Shown: positions 17,506-30,017 of the stretch, in pieces
Layout of the letters: every line of letters begins with the position of its first letter
Position numbering within the stretch: position 1 is the stretch's first letter
From: Aquificota bacterium
GTDB taxonomy: Bacteria > Aquificota > Aquificia > Aquificales > QOAS01
Assembly: GCA_013154305.1 (NCBI GenBank)
Contig: JAADCT010000021.1
Span: 1 to 36,639 of the forward strand
DNA: 36,639 nt
Direction of reading: 5' to 3'
Translations under genes and position numbers: made by a program
The notes under the pieces: generated by a model
What the model saw: only the letters and a program-made list of their open reading frames with translations
What the model was told of the DNA's origin: nothing
Database searches by the model: none

Positions 17506-19590
17506 ATGGGAAAGAGCCTTTTTAAACTCAAAACGGACCTGAAACCGGCCGGAGACCAACCGAAGGCGATAAAAAAGTTGGTCGAAAACCTGCGAAAGGG
17601 CGTAAAGGAGCAGGTCCTGCTGGGGGCGACGGGAACGGGAAAGAGCCTCCATCCCGACGAGCGCGTTTGGGTCGGCGAAAAAAGGGGGGAGGGGGTCGTT
17701 TGGTCGCCGACGACGATAGGGAGTTTCGTCGAAAAACTGCGCGGGGAACTGCCGACTTTGGACCTGGGCGGGGACCTTCTGGTTCCCCTTCCCAAAGGAA
17801 GGTTTTGGACGCTCTCTTTCAACCCCGAAAGCGGTGAGGTGGAACCTAAACCGCTTTACGCCGTTTCCCTCCACCGCGAGGAGGAGAGGCTTTTTGAGGT
17901 CCGACTGGCGGACGGAAGGAAGGTTCGAACGAGCGGGGACCACAACTTCTTCGCCCTGACGGGAAAGGGCTTGGTTCTGAAGCGGACGACGGAGCTAAGG
18001 AGGGGCGACCGCCTGCCGGTGCCGGCGGCCTTCTTCCCCGCCGAAGGCGGGCTTTCTTTCAAAAAGGAGGTTTTGGAGGAGCTGGGCCGCTTTGCGGTAT
18101 TCGGCGAGGGCGAGCCGCCGCCGCGGCTGAGAAACCTTTGCGTTTTGCCGGAGGGCGGCCGAAGGTTGCCGCCTTTTTGGGCCAACCTTTCGGCCGGGGG
18201 TTTGCGAAGGCTCCTAAAACCCCTTACGGAGGAGGGGCAGGTCCTTTTGAGGGACCGCCTTTTGGTCGAAGAGCTCCTTTACGCCCTTTCGGGGGCGGGC
18301 TTTGCCGCCAGGGTCCGAACGGAGGAAGGGGGTCTGAGGGTCGTCCTCGAAAAGGAGCTGGGGAGGCCCTCCCTCCTTTGGGTGGAGGTGGAGGAGGTTA
18401 GGGAACTCCCCTACCGGGGTTGGGTTTACGACCTTTCGGTGGAGGAAAACGAGACCTTTTTGGCGGGCTTTGGCGGACTCTTCGTTCACAACACCTTTAC
18501 CTTGGCCAACGTTATAGCCCAGTGGGGCCGCCCGACGCTGGTTATGGTCCACAACAAGATTTTGGCGGCCCAACTTTACAGGGAGTTTAAGGAGCTCTTT
18601 CCCGACAACGCGGTCGAGTACTTCGTTTCCTACTACGACTACTACCGGCCCGAGGCCTACATTCCGGAAAAGGACCTCTACATCGAAAAGGACGCGGCGA
18701 TAAACGACATACTGGAGCAGTACCGCCACAGCGCCACCAAGAGCGTTTTGGAGAGGAAGGACACCATAGTGGTGGCCTCCGTTTCGGCCATTTACGGTTT
18801 GGGTGCGCCCGAAAACTACATAAAGCTGCGGCTTCAGCTCCACCGGGGGCAGGAGTATCCGCTCAAAAAACTCCTAAAGCGGCTCGTCGAAATGGGCTAC
18901 AGGCGAAACGACTACGCCCTCAAGCGGGGAACCTTCAGCGTCAAAGGGGGCAACCTGGAAATCGTTCCCTCCCACACGGAGGAGGAGCTTATTCGAATCG
19001 AGTTTTGGGACGACGAGATAGACCGCATTCAGATTTTGGGAACCTTGAACCGGGAGGTGATAGCCGACGACCTCGAACAGGTGGTAATCTGGCCGGCCAC
19101 CCACTACTTGGCGCCGCGGCCGACCGTGGAGGAGGCCCTCAAGCAGATAGAGAGGGACCTAATCGAAAGGGTTGCCTGGTTTAAGGAGCGCGGCAAGGAG
19201 GTGGAGGCCCAAAGGCTCTTTCAGCGGACCTCCCACGACATTGAGATGATTAGGGAAACGGGAACCTGCAAGGGCATAGAGAACTACTCGCGTTACTTCG
19301 ACGGTCGGAAGCCGGGCGAGCCGCCCTTTACGCTTTTGGACTACTTTCCCGACGACTTTCTCCTGATAGTGGACGAGAGCCACCAAACCATTCCCCAGAT
19401 AAGGGCGATGTACGAGGGCGACCGCAGTCGGAAGCTCAAGCTGGTCGAGTACGGTTGGCGCCTGCCCTCGGCGCTGGACAACCGCCCGCTCAAGTTCGAC
19501 GAGTTTTTGAGCAAGCTCGACCGCGTCATCTACGTTTCGGCCACCCCCGGCGACTGGGAGCTCAGGCGCGTTTGCGAGGTAAACCGTTAA
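17506..19590 (+). CDS. uvrB: UvrB, interrupted by an intein in the P-loop and missing its C-terminal helicase half
   Basis: UvrB is the damage-verifying helicase-like subunit of nucleotide excision repair. Extein residues 1-46 and 330-694 align with UvrB from the N-terminus through [15 protein letters not shown] (beta-hairpin), [29 protein letters not shown] and YVSATPG. The Walker A GATGTGK is split by a 283-residue intein (47-329) from TFTLANVIA. After [10 protein letters not shown] the frame adds CEVNR and stops. About 250 residues of a normal UvrB of roughly 660 are missing: helicase motifs IV-VI and the UvrC-binding coiled coil. The other two downstream frames hold no UvrB sequence. The spliced product would have 411 residues. 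It is either a broken gene or one half of a split gene. The product is unlikely to work alone. Confidence 0.9.
17644..18492 (+). mobile_element. Intein in the UvrB Walker A motif, with a degenerate homing-endonuclease region
   Basis: The insert is 283 codons. It starts at Ser47 with block [13 protein letters not shown]. Block B is [13 protein letters not shown], and it ends with block [16 protein letters not shown] and block G FVHN, followed by extein Thr+1. These are the residues needed for class 1 protein splicing (Ser1, His in block B, His-Asn, Thr+1). About 120 residues between blocks B and F are too long for a minimal intein. They include a segment like the distal part of a LAGLIDADG domain ([19 protein letters not shown]), but no intact pair of LAGLIDADG motifs is visible, so the endonuclease looks decayed. 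Excision restores GATGTGK-TFT. Confidence 0.93.
18037..18051. repeat. 15-base GC hairpin repeat, copy in the uvrB intein
   Basis: CCCGCC-GAA-GGCGGG, preceded by TC and followed by CTTTC. It encodes PAEGGLS inside the intein. The 22-base context is identical to the copy in gcvT at 26416. Confidence 0.75.
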
Positions 19591-22773: not shown

Positions 22774-23292
22774 ATGGGAAACCTCACCGAAGAGCTGCTG
22801 GAGGACCTATACCGCCGCCTGGCCGACATTCTCGGCGAGAAAATGGTCCGCCTCTTTAAGAGGAAAATCTCCCAAAAGCAAATAACGCGCGTTCCCCAAA
22901 TCATTTTCGCCGTCGCCGGCGAAATGGAAAAGACGCTGGGGAGAATGGGCGCCTACGCGTCGCTGCGGGAGCTGGGCCGCTCGGTTGCCCGCGACCTGAT
23001 GGCCCAACATCCGAAGGAGGAGTGGGAAAAGATTTTCGAAGAGGGCCTGGCAATAATGGGTTTTGCCAAGGGCGTTCAGCGCGAACCCAATCGCGCCTGC
23101 ATCTGCTCGTGCATCTTTTACCCCCAATTTCTCTCCAAAAAGGGATTGCAACCGACCGAACACCCCGTCTGTTGGATAGGGTGGGGTTTTATAGAAGGCT
23201 TTATGAAGGAGTTTACGGGCGCAACCGGCGTCCGCTTCGCCGGCCGCGACTTTGAAAACGAACGTTGTTGGTTCGAGGTCGTCAACTATTGA
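22774..23292 (+). CDS. Cysteine-rich V4R-like putative sensor protein
   Basis: I do not recognise a firm family for this 172-residue soluble protein. A helical N-terminus (about 1-95) is followed by a cysteine-rich half: C109-x-C111-x-C113, then H130-x2-C133 and C165. The segment HPVCWIGWGFIEGFMKEFTGATG through ERCWFEVV resembles the end of V4R (4-vinyl reductase) domains, where a conserved His/Cys cluster and a C-x-F-x-V strand bind small hydrophobic molecules or metal. The C-x-C-x-C cluster suggests zinc, iron-sulfur or heme binding. It converges with the sensor-globin gene, overlapping it by seven bases, which hints at related roles in gas or redox sensing. That link is inference. Confidence 0.6.
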   Translation: MGNLTEELLEDLYRRLADILGEKMVRLFKRKISQKQITRVPQIIFAVAGEMEKTLGRMGAYASLRELGRSVARDLMAQHPKEEWEKIFEEGLAIMGFAKGVQREPNRACICSCIFYPQFLSKKGLQPTEHPVCWIGWGFIEGFMKEFTGATGVRFAGRDFENERCWFEVVNY

Positions 23293-23918
23293 CCCTTTAC
23301 CCCCAATTCTTTGAAACCCCTCAGCATTTTCTCCAACTCCATTTTCAACATCCGCTTGACCAGTTCCGGTTTCATGCCCAGGATGTCAAACAGCGCCTTT
23401 TTGAGGGTGAAGATGTAACCCTCGACGGTAAAGCCGACGAAGGCGGCCACTATCTTGCTGAAGGCCTGGTAGACCTCAAAGGCCTCGCCCTCTTCGAAGT
23501 TCTCGAGACAAAGCTGGAGAAACTTCCTCCTCAATACGTCGGCCATAAAAATCATCAGGTGGTTGTCCACGTCGTAGTAGATGTGAACCAGACCGACGTA
23601 AAACGAATAGCGGAAAAAGGCCTCGTCCACCTCACCCGAAACTATCATCTCGTACCAACGCTTATTGGTCCTTTTGAGCTTCTCTATCGGTATGTTGTTT
23701 TCCTCTATAATCCGCCGCGCCTTTTCGTTTTTAAGAAGCGTGTCGTAAAACTCGTCGACGATTTCGTCGGCCCAAGTTTTTAAAAACTCCTTGCGCAACT
23801 TCAAAATTTGAATGTCCCTTTCGGAAAAGTTGAGCAAAACCTTGGCGTCTTCCAAAATTTCCTTAATCAGTCGATAAGCTTCCTCTAACCTTTTTTGCAT
23901 TTCCTCCATGTTCCCCAT
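23286..23918 (-). CDS. Single-domain sensor globin (globin-coupled-sensor/protoglobin type)
   Basis: The 210-residue protein fits the globin-coupled-sensor fold. Helices DEIVDEFYDTLLKNEKARRII and ERTNKRWYEMI-type segments precede DEAFFRYSFYVGLVHIYYDVDNHLMIFM, where H112 in LVH is the expected proximal heme ligand. The remaining C-terminal part (about 125-210) is helical. There is no kinase, cyclase or methyl-accepting domain, so it is a stand-alone globin that could bind O2, CO or NO. A CRP/FNR-type box (23931-23944) sits 13 bases upstream of the ATG, and a TTGACA -35 candidate lies further out. It shares seven bases with the V4R-like gene at its 3' end. Confidence 0.78.
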   Translation of the reverse strand: MGNMEEMQKRLEEAYRLIKEILEDAKVLLNFSERDIQILKLRKEFLKTWADEIVDEFYDTLLKNEKARRIIEENNIPIEKLKRTNKRWYEMIVSGEVDEAFFRYSFYVGLVHIYYDVDNHLMIFMADVLRRKFLQLCLENFEEGEAFEVYQAFSKIVAAFVGFTVEGYIFTLKKALFDILGMKPELVKRMLKMELEKMLRGFKELGVKGQ

Positions 23919-23930
23919 CTCGATAATTAC

Positions 23931-23944
23931 TTGATGTTACTCAA
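23931..23944. promoter_or_regulatory. CRP/FNR-type box upstream of the globin gene
   Basis: TTGATGTTACTCAA has perfect TTGA and TCAA half-sites six bases apart, one base from the FNR consensus TTGAT-N4-ATCAA. It lies between a possible globin promoter (TTGACA at 23978-23983, minus strand, with TATGAA after 15 bases) and the globin ATG, a position that would suit repression. Confidence 0.5.
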
Positions 23945-24384: not shown

Positions 24385-25809
24385 CTACCTCCCCTTCCTC
24401 TCTACGAACTCGACCACCTTTAGTCTTCCGTCCTCGAGGCGGACCTTGGCGTCGAACTTTTTCCCCTTTTTGGAGCGAAGGCCCCGCAGCAAAACCGTTT
24501 TTCCTTCCAGCAGGGCCAGGGCCTGCTTTGCCGTAAGCCGCTTTCCCGAAAAGGTTTCCCACACAATCAGGCCGCAGGAGGGGCACCTCCAACCTTTGGA
24601 AAAGGGAACCACCCTCCCGCCGCAGCGGCAGGTTCCCAAACCCTCCTTCTCCCTTCGGAGGGCCTCCTCCAAAAACTCCTTTATCCGTTCGAAGGTTTTC
24701 TCTTTGGGAAGTTTGAGTCCCAGCTTTCGCGCCAGCTCGGAGGCCAGTTTCAGCATCTTCGGCGTTGCGGGTCGCTCCGACGGCTCTCGGGAAACCTCCT
24801 TCTCCTTCAGCCTTTTTACTTCCTCACCCGTAAAGGTCTTTATCGCCTCCAGAAACCTCTCGTAGCCCCTCTTTTTCAGGTCCTTTAGGTGTATTTCCTC
24901 CAGGCGCCTTTCCCACTCGGAGGTCATTTCGGGCGAGACGACCTTGGACCCCTCGAGGAAGGAAATCAGAGCAAACGCCTTTTGGGTGGGAACCAAGGTC
25001 TTTCCCTTTAAGAGGGCGTAGCCCCTCTTTTTCAAAGTTTCGATGATTTGGGCGCGGGTTGCCGGCGTTCCCAACCCCAGCCTTTCCATCTCCTTCAGGA
25101 GCGAGCCCTCGGTGTAGCGCGGCGGCGGTTGGGTCCTCCTCTTTTCCAACTTCTGGTCCACCTTTTTGACCTCGTCGCCCTCTTTGAGGGGCACCTCTTC
25201 GGTCTTGAACTCCTCCGAGTAGAGGGCCTTCCAACCCGGTTCGAGGTCCCTCCGCAGTTTTGAATAAAAGTAGTAGGGACCCACGCGCGTCAAAATCTTC
25301 CAAACTTCGTAGCGGTAGGGCGGGTAAAAGACGGCCAGAAAGCGCCTTTTTATCAGTTCGTAAATCTTTCTCTCTTCGGGGGAGAGCCCTTCGGGGGGAG
25401 GCGCCAGCGGAATTATCGCGTGGTGGTCGGTGAGCTTGGAGTCGTCAAAGACGCGCTTTCCGACCCTGGCGACCTCGGGAACGAGGTCCTCGCGGCCCAA
25501 AAGCTTCAAAACCTTTACCGCCAGCGGGCGGTTGGCCTCGGCCAGGTGGCGGCTCTCGGTCCTCGGATAGGAAACGACCTTGTGCTTTTCGTAAAGCCTC
25601 TGGGCCAGCTCCAAGGTCTTTTGGGCCGAAAAGCCGAAGAGGCGGTTGGCCTCCCTTTGGAGCGTGGTCAGCGAGTGGAGAGAGGGGGGCGGAACCTTTT
25701 TTAATTCCCTCTTTAGGGTCTCGACGACGCCCTTTTGGTACCGCCTGAGGTCGTCGAAAATCCTCCTTGCCTCCTCCTCGGTCAGGGCAAAGGGCGAGGG
25801 CCTCCCCAT
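24385..25809 (-). CDS. topB: Topoisomerase III (type IA) lacking the N-terminal TOPRIM half
   Basis: Type IA topoisomerases cut one DNA strand through an active-site tyrosine, here Y81 in VSYPRTESRHL. Family features follow in order: TDHHAIIPL, PPPRYTEGSLLKEMERLGLGTPATRA, TSEWERRLEEI. A C-terminal zinc region (CRCGG...CPSCG) ends in the TopB-type RLTAKQALALLEG...SKKGKKFDAKV. The protein has 474 residues. A full TopB has about 650-730, beginning with a TOPRIM domain that binds Mg2+. Here the ATG falls just before the TLREAN-type segment, and an in-frame TAA lies five codons upstream. The missing part is not elsewhere in the window. It is either a remnant or one subunit of a split enzyme. It diverges from gcvT over 27 bases. 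Confidence 0.88.
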   Translation of the reverse strand: MGRPSPFALTEEEARRIFDDLRRYQKGVVETLKRELKKVPPPSLHSLTTLQREANRLFGFSAQKTLELAQRLYEKHKVVSYPRTESRHLAEANRPLAVKVLKLLGREDLVPEVARVGKRVFDDSKLTDHHAIIPLAPPPEGLSPEERKIYELIKRRFLAVFYPPYRYEVWKILTRVGPYYFYSKLRRDLEPGWKALYSEEFKTEEVPLKEGDEVKKVDQKLEKRRTQPPPRYTEGSLLKEMERLGLGTPATRAQIIETLKKRGYALLKGKTLVPTQKAFALISFLEGSKVVSPEMTSEWERRLEEIHLKDLKKRGYERFLEAIKTFTGEEVKRLKEKEVSREPSERPATPKMLKLASELARKLGLKLPKEKTFERIKEFLEEALRREKEGLGTCRCGGRVVPFSKGWRCPSCGLIVWETFSGKRLTAKQALALLEGKTVLLRGLRSKKGKKFDAKVRLEDGRLKVVEFVERKGR

Positions 25810-27948: not shown

Positions 27949-29874
27949 TTATACGGGGAGGCCGAGCTTCTCGCGCTTGGACAGGATGTGGCGCTCGATG
28001 CCGTCGGCGACGGCCACGGGGTCCTCGCCGAGGGCGATTTTTCCGCCGGTCAGCTTCTCCACCTCTTCGGTCAGGAGTTTGACGACCTTGTCGGAACCGG
28101 TGACCGGCGGAACGGGCGAAACGTGGGTGTAGAAGCCCATGGCAACGGCCGAAAAACCGTCGACGACGGCCTTTTGTTCCATGTATTCGGGGGCGGTGAC
28201 GGCGGCGGGAAGGTCGGCCGTGTCGACGCCGATGTAGTCGGCCAGCGCCACGGTGGTCATTATGACCCTACCGGTGTCGGTGCAAGTTCCGAACGACAGA
28301 ACGGGCGGAATGCCGAGCTGTTCGCAGAGCTCGCGCAGTTTGGGACCGGCCAACTTTTTGGCCTCGGGGCTTTCGAGGCCGGCCACCTGCATTCCGGCGT
28401 TTCCGCAACCGCCGCCCACCACCAAAATGTCCCTCTTGATTAGTTCCTTGGCCAGGTTTACGGTCAGGCTGTCGTGGGGACCGTTGGCGAGGGTGGTGCA
28501 GTTTATCAGGGCCACGATGCCCTTGATGTAGCCGTCCTTAATGGCCTGAACGATGGGCTCGAGCGAACCGCCCACGGCGTTTACGAGGGCCTCGGCCGAA
28601 AAGCCGGCGATAACCTTCCGGCGGAACTTCGACAGGTCGGCGGGTTTGATTTCGCCCTTTTTGATGCGCTCTTGGCGCTTGACGAAGTTTTCTATGGCGC
28701 GGTCGATAATCTTTTGAACGACCTCCTTCTCCTTGCCCGGCTTCCAGATAATCTTTTCCGAACCGGGAACGCCGATAATTTCGGTAACCGCAATCAGTTT
28801 GAACTGATACCTGTCGGCGTACTCCTTGAGGTTGGCCAGCGAACAGTTCATGTCCATTACGAAGGCGTCGACGGCACCGCTGGAGAGGAAGTACTCTATC
28901 GCTATCCAGTTGTGGGTGAGACCGGCAAAACCGTTGGGGCTGACGCGCTGGAGGAGCTCCTGACCGGTTTCAATCGAACCGACGACGCGGATGCCCTTGG
29001 CGCCGGCGCGGCGGGCTTTCTCCTGAACGGCCGGGTCGTTAATGGCCTCCAGCAGCGCAAAGGCCACAAACGGCTCGTGACCGTTGGGCAGGATGTTGAC
29101 GTAGTCGGGGTCGAGAACTCCGAAGTCGACCCAACCCTCGTGGGGAGTAGGCGTTCCGTAGAGGACGTCCTGAATCATTTCAAGGACGGCGGTGCTCTCA
29201 AAGGCCGAAGCCACGCCGTTTCTGAGGGCCGCCAGACCGAGCGATACGTAGTCGCCGTCGATGTTGGTCATCGAGCGGGCCACGTTGTCCACCAGTTCCA
29301 TCAGGGAACCTTTGGGGAAAATGCCCAGTTCCCTGAAAATTTGCTTGCGCTTTTCGGGAGCCAGACGCTCTACCAGCGTCGACTCGGTGGGTTCGGCCAG
29401 GTAGTAGAGGTACTTTTCGCCGACCTCAACGGCCAACTTGTCCGCCGGTTGGTTGGGGTCGACGCCCATAATCTCGGCCAAAAGCTTGAGTTTGGCCTCG
29501 TCCTTTATGGTAAAGGGCGTTTCGCCCTTACCGGTTTTTATCAAAGTCAGGGCCGCCTCGCGGGCGTGGTAGGTGTAGGCCGCCAGCCCCATGTTGGCCT
29601 TGATGAGGAGGTTACGCATAACTATACCGTGGGCGTCGATGCCGCAAACTCCGCGGGGAGTGGTGGGCGTAATTCGGCACGGTCCCATCGAACAAAGCTG
29701 GCAGGATACGCCCTCCTTACAGAACTTACAGCGGACCTTTTCCATAGCCTCGAAGCGGTCCGCCACGTTCGAGAGGCCCTCTTTGTGGACCCTCTCGTAC
29801 ATGTAGTTAACGCTGTCGTGGACCGAAATCTTTTTAACGACCTCTTCTTTTTTGAAGAGTTTTCCGAAGACCAT
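27949..29874 (-). CDS. cooS: CooS-type carbon monoxide dehydrogenase homologue with altered catalytic-cluster ligands
   Basis: The 641-residue protein aligns along its length with monofunctional Ni-CODH. Electron-transfer clusters: C49-x2-C52 (cluster D, short CX2C form), then C58, C61, C66 and C77 (cluster B). Catalytic cluster: H266 (NGHEP), C344 (DMNC), C459 (LINC), C490 (GGGC), C531 (FGTC) and the base K568 (EQKAV) are kept. At the place of the usual G-x-C-C-T-G motif it reads G-S-I-E-T-G (E302), so the cysteine ligand there is lost. Ni-CODH chemistry is therefore uncertain. I chose the ATG at 29874; an in-frame TTG lies three codons upstream. No cooF, cooC or acetyl-CoA synthase genes are adjacent. 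The leader has a hairpin and a CRP/FNR-type box. Confidence 0.9.
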   Translation of the reverse strand: MVFGKLFKKEEVVKKISVHDSVNYMYERVHKEGLSNVADRFEAMEKVRCKFCKEGVSCQLCSMGPCRITPTTPRGVCGIDAHGIVMRNLLIKANMGLAAYTYHAREAALTLIKTGKGETPFTIKDEAKLKLLAEIMGVDPNQPADKLAVEVGEKYLYYLAEPTESTLVERLAPEKRKQIFRELGIFPKGSLMELVDNVARSMTNIDGDYVSLGLAALRNGVASAFESTAVLEMIQDVLYGTPTPHEGWVDFGVLDPDYVNILPNGHEPFVAFALLEAINDPAVQEKARRAGAKGIRVVGSIETGQELLQRVSPNGFAGLTHNWIAIEYFLSSGAVDAFVMDMNCSLANLKEYADRYQFKLIAVTEIIGVPGSEKIIWKPGKEKEVVQKIIDRAIENFVKRQERIKKGEIKPADLSKFRRKVIAGFSAEALVNAVGGSLEPIVQAIKDGYIKGIVALINCTTLANGPHDSLTVNLAKELIKRDILVVGGGCGNAGMQVAGLESPEAKKLAGPKLRELCEQLGIPPVLSFGTCTDTGRVIMTTVALADYIGVDTADLPAAVTAPEYMEQKAVVDGFSAVAMGFYTHVSPVPPVTGSDKVVKLLTEEVEKLTGGKIALGEDPVAVADGIERHILSKREKLGLPV

Positions 29875-30003: not shown

Positions 30004-30017
30004 TTGAAGGGAATCAA
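30004..30017. promoter_or_regulatory. CRP/FNR-type box upstream of cooS
   Basis: TTGAAGGGAATCAA has perfect TTGA and TCAA half-sites six bases apart, one base from TTGAT-N4-ATCAA. It lies 130 bases upstream of the cooS ATG. A weak -10-like TAAAGG on the minus strand (29973-29968) is about 40 bases from its centre, roughly where an activator-dependent promoter would sit. It is 75 bases from dnaB on the other side. Confidence 0.5.

Follow-up and report, generated by a model that had tools for sequence, protein, structure and literature searches.

Known systems

The CooS-V (CODH-V) class of carbon monoxide dehydrogenase (CODH) relatives has already been described (PMC9311411, PMC6344411). The published CooS-V of Carboxydothermus has a Ni-free Fe-S-O cluster, and CO activity is absent. 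This hybrid cluster involves the residues His259, Glu295, Cys338, Cys449, Cys480, Cys521 and Glu556 (PMC9311411). A cluster of the same kind, with a similar ligand set, is found in the hybrid cluster protein (HCP).

A further member of the class is the type V CodH of Thermovibrio ammonificans. It was said to keep the NiFeS ligands, and it was suggested that it may reduce CO2 to CO (PMC5441870).

The gene and its active site

The window, that is, the whole stretch of 36,639 nucleotides analysed from a heat-loving vent bacterium of the Aquificota (contig JAADCT010000021.1), encodes a protein of this class. The features of the gene are as follows.

27949..29874, minus strand: cooS-V-type gene, 641 aa, coordinates including the stop codon; open frame, Prismane PF03063 474 bits
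29719..29730, minus strand: C49-x2-C52, type III D-cluster motif, equivalent to Cys38 and Cys41 of CooS-V, where the D cluster is a bridging [2Fe-2S] cluster
29575..29577, minus strand: Y100, replacing the acid-base His of active CODHs (translation and alignment)
28957..28980, minus strand: GSIETGQE motif, residues 299-306; E302 (28969-28971) replaces the C-cluster ligand Cys295
28171..28179, minus strand: E566-Q-K568, hybrid-cluster Glu ligand (Glu556 of CooS-V) and conserved Lys

The preliminary description gave the interval 28960-29874, which lies within the gene but holds residues 1-305 only; the full gene is 27949-29874 on the minus strand. Translation bears out its reading of GSIETGQE at residues 299-306 in place of the GxCCTGNE of active Ni-CODHs, and H266, C344, C459, C490, C531 and K568 are each retained where it had placed them. 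The cluster D motif C49-x2-C52 is also as reported, and has the fuller form C49-x2-C52-x5-C58. The claimed loss of a Cys-Cys pair needs qualification. Both cysteines are gone, but of the pair only Cys295 (CODH-II numbering; E302 here) binds the cluster.

Two departures had been overlooked. Y100 occupies the position of the acid-base His, and E566, two residues before K568, corresponds to the additional Glu that binds the hybrid cluster in CooS-V and HCP. In the alignment, the seven hybrid-cluster residues of CooS-V, in the order given above, correspond to H266, E302, C344, C459, C490, C531 and E566 of the window protein.

The protein contains 11 cysteines: C49, C52, C58, C61, C66, C77, the four in the active site, and C517, a position where two of the three aligned active CODHs have Cys as well. 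A cysteine ligand supplied from another position had been named beforehand as grounds for refutation, and none of the 11 is free to serve as one. What an active Ni,Fe-CODH requires is missing at two places, as the Cys295 site holds Glu with no spare Cys, and Tyr stands for the acid-base His. With active enzymes such as CODH-II and the D. vulgaris CODH the window protein shares the scaffold, the B and D clusters, the Lys and all but one of the six C-cluster ligands.

Glu is found at the Cys295 site in 93 sequences among all relatives fetched. Every one of the 93 keeps the hybrid-cluster residues and K568, as well as C52 and Y100 wherever these are covered; since the set was gathered by similarity to the window protein, this describes conservation inside the clade and not the clade's outer limits. 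Sequencing error, a pseudogene and chance were rejected as explanations, the frame being open and the residue set being kept in these 93 sequences.

Class and genome

The window protein is of the CooS-V type, structural group D-1 of clade D, and is not a new kind of protein. Its best solved relative is 7b7q, CooS-V with an oxidised hybrid cluster (668 bits; the next scores 427 bits). Identity is 50.7% to this protein, compared with 35-40% to three aligned active CODHs. In a quick tree made without bootstrap, the window protein groups with its genus and then with the Desulfurobacteriaceae, within the CooS-V clade (SH-aLRT 100 at each step). The AlphaFold model has a mean pLDDT of 92.3, and CooS-V ranks first for it in Foldseek (TM 0.95, rmsd 1.3). 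The earlier suggestion of a CODH-V-like, Ni-free variant thus holds as to clade, by sequence, tree and fold, and as to ligand set. Judged from the published CooS-V, the window protein would lack Ni and is almost certainly inactive towards CO.

CooS-V of C. hydrogenoformans (7b7q, 7b9a) and the window protein have the same fold and all seven hybrid-cluster residues. They are also alike in the type III D-cluster motif, in Tyr for the acid-base His and in Glu two residues before Lys; the window protein has Thr303 where CooS-V has Ser. The hosts differ more, since C. hydrogenoformans carries four other CODHs and HCP, whereas the window genome, in Aquificota, has one prismane-family gene. The next closest relatives, at 68-72% identity and with an identical motif, are the type V CodH of T. 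ammonificans (PMC5441870) and those of other Desulfurobacteriaceae. The window protein is not a member of the HCP family, scoring 49.5 bits against a TIGR01703 cut-off of 360.8, and unlike HCP it retains the CODH scaffold and the interfacial D-cluster cysteines. The shared type of cluster suggests that it may nevertheless work in an HCP-like manner.

Two other families of the window's order (loci L092-L101, L118 and L120-L125) have a distinct CooS variant, which the quick tree places next to the CooS-V clade as its sister. It reads SLCTGQE, with Cys295 kept, and has Tyr for the acid-base His and Asp for the catalytic Lys. This combination is missing from Table 2 of PMC6344411.

TIGR01702 scores the window protein at 763 bits against a cut-off of 478, so that automatic annotation calls it a CO dehydrogenase. 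In the window genome (1.15 Mb, about 94% complete), cooS-V is the sole prismane-family gene, and neither HCP above cut-off nor a second CODH nor an acetyl-CoA synthase was found. The absence of acs, earlier noted for the surroundings of the gene, is true genome-wide.

The neighbours of cooS-V in the window are housekeeping genes (radical SAM, dnaB, gcvT, topoisomerase) and vary among congeners. No conserved neighbours of the window gene itself were found, which counts against a role in nitrosative stress. An operon with the downstream radical SAM gene was rejected, as the arrangement is not kept in the genus.

Two side observations concern other genes in the window. At 17506-19590 on the plus strand, UvrB is interrupted close to its beginning by N- and C-terminal splicing regions of intein type; its match ends at profile position 400 of 658, and the C-terminal third is missing from the frame. 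At 24385-25809 on the minus strand, a Topoisomerase III-like protein matches full-length models from about position 250, and its N-terminal Toprim part seems to be absent or in another frame.

Promoter box

HcpR of some deltaproteobacteria has the predicted site wyTTGACnnnnGTCAArw (PMC1274295). The box searched for here was TTGAYN4RTCAA, of the FNR/DNR/HcpR type. Two intervals in the window are of interest.

30004..30017, minus strand: candidate FNR/DNR/HcpR-type operator TTGATTCCCTTCAA in the gap that separates cooS-V from dnaB, 143 bases upstream of where cooS-V starts
23286..23918, minus strand: protoglobin-domain protein, 210 aa (PF11563, E 1e-20), with a TTGA-N6-TCAA palindrome just upstream at 23931-23944

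Of 17 cooS-V genes of Desulfurobacteriaceae, 15 have a perfect TTGAYNNNNRTCAA no more than 250 bases from their start; a shuffled control gave an expectation of 0.85 genes, even with up to one mismatch allowed. Fourteen loci, amounting to 193 kb, contain 15 perfect boxes, and every locus has one upstream of cooS-V. Twelve of these upstream boxes are within 250 bases and two are about 360-390 bases away, while the fifteenth site is inside the cooS-V gene.

The window box TTGATTCCCTTCAA has one mismatch to the search pattern. In the window's genus, all five cooS-V promoters contain TTGA-N6-TCAA, for which the background in the window genome is 15 sites per 1.15 Mb, or about 0.003 per 200 bases. 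When tried as the mark of a regulon across the window genome, this palindrome failed: the reversed control gave 19 sites and the palindrome 15. Outside Aquificota, a box precedes cooS-V in only 1 of 23 other bacteria and 1 of 25 archaea, and the regulatory claim is therefore limited to Aquificota.

One congener (G006) lacks cooS-V. Instead it has a short HCP (contig C31, locus L143, 1531-2976). A perfect TTGACTGCGGTCAA box precedes the start of this hcp by 41 bases, and a Crp/Fnr gene faces it. The same box before hcp in a genome without cooS-V is the best single hint that CooS-V and HCP share a job. No Aquificota genome was found with both HCP and cooS-V, a result that is not significant because only four genomes have HCP.

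It is weakly possible that the protoglobin-domain protein belongs to the same response as cooS-V. Its homologue in another congener (G004, locus L090) is about 2.5 kb from cooS-V, and the palindrome is missing from its upstream region.

ygbA and the candidate regulator

The layout around cooS-V is conserved in Desulfurobacteriaceae: cooS-V is followed after about 77 bases by ygbA, and then by a Crp/Fnr gene, which in most cases is encoded on the opposite strand. The ygbA assignment is based on PF11756 (E 2.5e-37) and on NCBIfam NF007714, which scores above its cut-off. In E. coli, YgbA is a member of the NO-responsive NsrR regulon (PMC1274295, PMC5320621). In the window genome both partners are on other contigs, with YgbA on contig C49 beside a peroxiredoxin-like gene.

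YgbA occurs in 27 of 136 Aquificota genomes, namely 26 of the 27 counted as cooS-V carriers (some from family scores, the rest by reading the motif) and one of the 109 others, the congener with HCP; as the genomes come from essentially two clades, these counts are not independent and the Fisher value is not usable as a probability.

A Crp/Fnr protein on contig C5 of the window genome is 41-44% identical to the Desulfurobacteriaceae regulator, compared with 25-28% for the genome's other Crp/Fnr protein, and appears by sequence to be its orthologue-like counterpart. The closest characterised solved relative of both regulators is DNR, a haem-based NO sensor. Most regulators adjoining cooS-V have the recognition helix ETVSR, which suits TTGA half-sites. 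Most also have no cysteine, and are thus unlikely to be FNR-type cluster proteins. Taken with the boxes, these sequences suggest that a DNR/HcpR-like Crp/Fnr regulator probably controls cooS-V transcription at the candidate TTGA-N6-TCAA box.

Also in Desulfurobacteriaceae (L009-L016, L104-L115), Nitro_FeMo-Co (NifX-like) and DUF1847 proteins are often encoded upstream of cooS-V and divergent from it, a possible link to cluster assembly.

Neighbours in other taxa

At about 45 diverse cooS-V loci, 123 neighbour proteins within 1 kb were compared with 124 proteins 3-6 kb away. The near set has eight proteins with 4Fe-4S ferredoxin domains, four Crp, four V4R, four flavodiiron-type (ODP), three HAO-type multihaem and two Rrf2 proteins; each of these families occurs at most once in the far set. 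The contrast is suggestive only (p ~0.02 for ferredoxins, p ~0.05 for the regulators combined).

Upstream of cooS-V, Methanosarcinales and ANME-type archaea encode a flavodiiron protein that is similar to the model for the NO reductase flavorubredoxin. At three archaeal loci (L054, L062 and L070), an HAO/HDH-like multihaem cytochrome lies directly downstream.

Proposed function and its rivals

With a probability of about two in three, the window gene encodes a CooS-V-type hybrid-cluster reductase that does not convert CO or CO2 and protects against nitrosative stress under DNR/HcpR-like control. What this analysis itself shows is the class of the protein, its ligand set and fold, the boxes in the promoters, and the genes that accompany cooS-V in relatives. 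By analogy with the published CooS-V, the protein would be a homodimer built on the CODH scaffold, and would carry a [4Fe-4S] cluster of the B type and a bridging [2Fe-2S] cluster. The seven residues aligned above would hold a Ni-free [4Fe-3S-nO] hybrid cluster where active enzymes have their Ni,Fe C-cluster, and CO and CO2 would not be interconverted. Most likely the protein would act as an HCP-like reductase, with clusters D and B relaying electrons to the hybrid cluster. There, NO-derived or other oxidised nitrogen species would be reduced, which would protect the cell from nitrosative stress.

Context is what points to this substrate and to NO as the signal. The preliminary description had suggested, from the active site, that the protein perhaps acts on small nitrogen or oxygen species. 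Action on nitrogen species gains independent if indirect support from the promoter boxes, ygbA, the DNR-like regulator, and the flavodiiron and HAO-like neighbours in relatives. Some observations count against it. Purified Carboxydothermus CooS-V is published to reduce hydroxylamine slowly, and NO reduction was not detected, which speaks against a role with NO. Neither NapA above cut-off nor NrfA was found in the genus, which makes an internal source of NO uncertain. The single mismatch in the window box and the palindrome's lack of enrichment in the window genome weigh against the role too. Furthermore, an FNR-type box alone does not identify the signal, which weakens a specific NO reading.

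The main rival would have the same hybrid-cluster protein deal not with nitrogen species but with oxygen or peroxide stress, or with general redox sensing, and its Crp/Fnr factor respond to O2 or to redox state. O2 sensors can read FNR-type boxes, and the [2Fe-2S] D cluster has been linked to O2 tolerance. The flavodiiron proteins and the V4R and Rrf2 regulators found close to cooS-V in other taxa can belong to such responses as well, and the peroxiredoxin-like gene beside YgbA in the window genome would fit them. We nevertheless consider this rival unlikely in view of the NO regulon to which YgbA belongs in E. coli, the adjoining regulators, most of which have DNR as their nearest relative and lack a cysteine that could bind an FNR cluster, and the HAO-like neighbours in archaea. 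A role of the hybrid cluster mainly as a redox-switching persulfide/sulfur or signalling site (e.g. S-nitrosylase-like), instead of a bulk detoxification catalyst, is quite improbable. It would fit the poor measured turnover on nitrogen substrates, and a persulfide Cys with a redox-driven move is described for CooS-V and the residue is conserved; but sulfur-metabolism genes do not recur beside cooS-V, and the redox-gated substrate channel suggests a reductase.

Least credible, and very improbable, is the reading as a genuine Ni-CODH that still converts CO and CO2 with Glu302 standing for Cys295, such as in carbon fixation, the role proposed for T. ammonificans. The CODH fold and the five remaining C-cluster ligands would allow it, and CodH, the proposed CO maker, is in the T. 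ammonificans proteome. However, CooS-V with the same ligands has neither Ni nor CO activity, and C295A/E variants of CODH-II are Ni-deficient and cannot oxidise CO. Acetyl-CoA synthase is likewise in no cooS-V genome of the phylum; one of the 136 Aquificota genomes has it, and that genome lacks cooS-V. Fixation of CO2 in T. ammonificans, by 13C tests, proceeds by the rTCA cycle only.

That sole acetyl-CoA synthase (CdhC, a 745 aa frame at G055:C86:1226-1708) is in a genome without a CODH match, and may be a binning error.

Implications for Thermovibrio ammonificans and Aquificota

The cooS-V of T. ammonificans (L114) reads GSIETGQE, i.e. it has Glu at the ligand site. Its CodH protein was detected in cells under nitrate-reducing conditions, and the rTCA-only result comes from a 2025 13C study (PMC12743299); both observations fit a role other than with CO. 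From its sequence, the published CO-forming role of this type V CodH does not fit.

For CooS-V, a structure has been solved and a function has been lacking. The box, the pairing with ygbA and the congener that has hcp instead lead to a concrete physiological assignment, which is testable in a cultivated organism, T. ammonificans. This evidence on the role is new, in that no earlier report of the links to the box, ygbA and hcp was found in the literature searched. It also corrects an annotation, as family models call the window protein a CO dehydrogenase above cut-off.

We are evenly divided over a wider proposal. In Aquificota, one box read by a DNR-like Crp/Fnr protein would drive either cooS-V (with ygbA) or hcp. 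CooS-V would then be an alternative to HCP in a nitrosative-stress regulon, a CODH scaffold recruited to NO defence, and the ancestral CO-forming step that deep-branching Aquificota were proposed to keep, on the strength of type V CodH, would be wrong. That type V CodH is a CO dehydrogenase is one of the premises of a published scenario of carbon fixation in early Aquificota.
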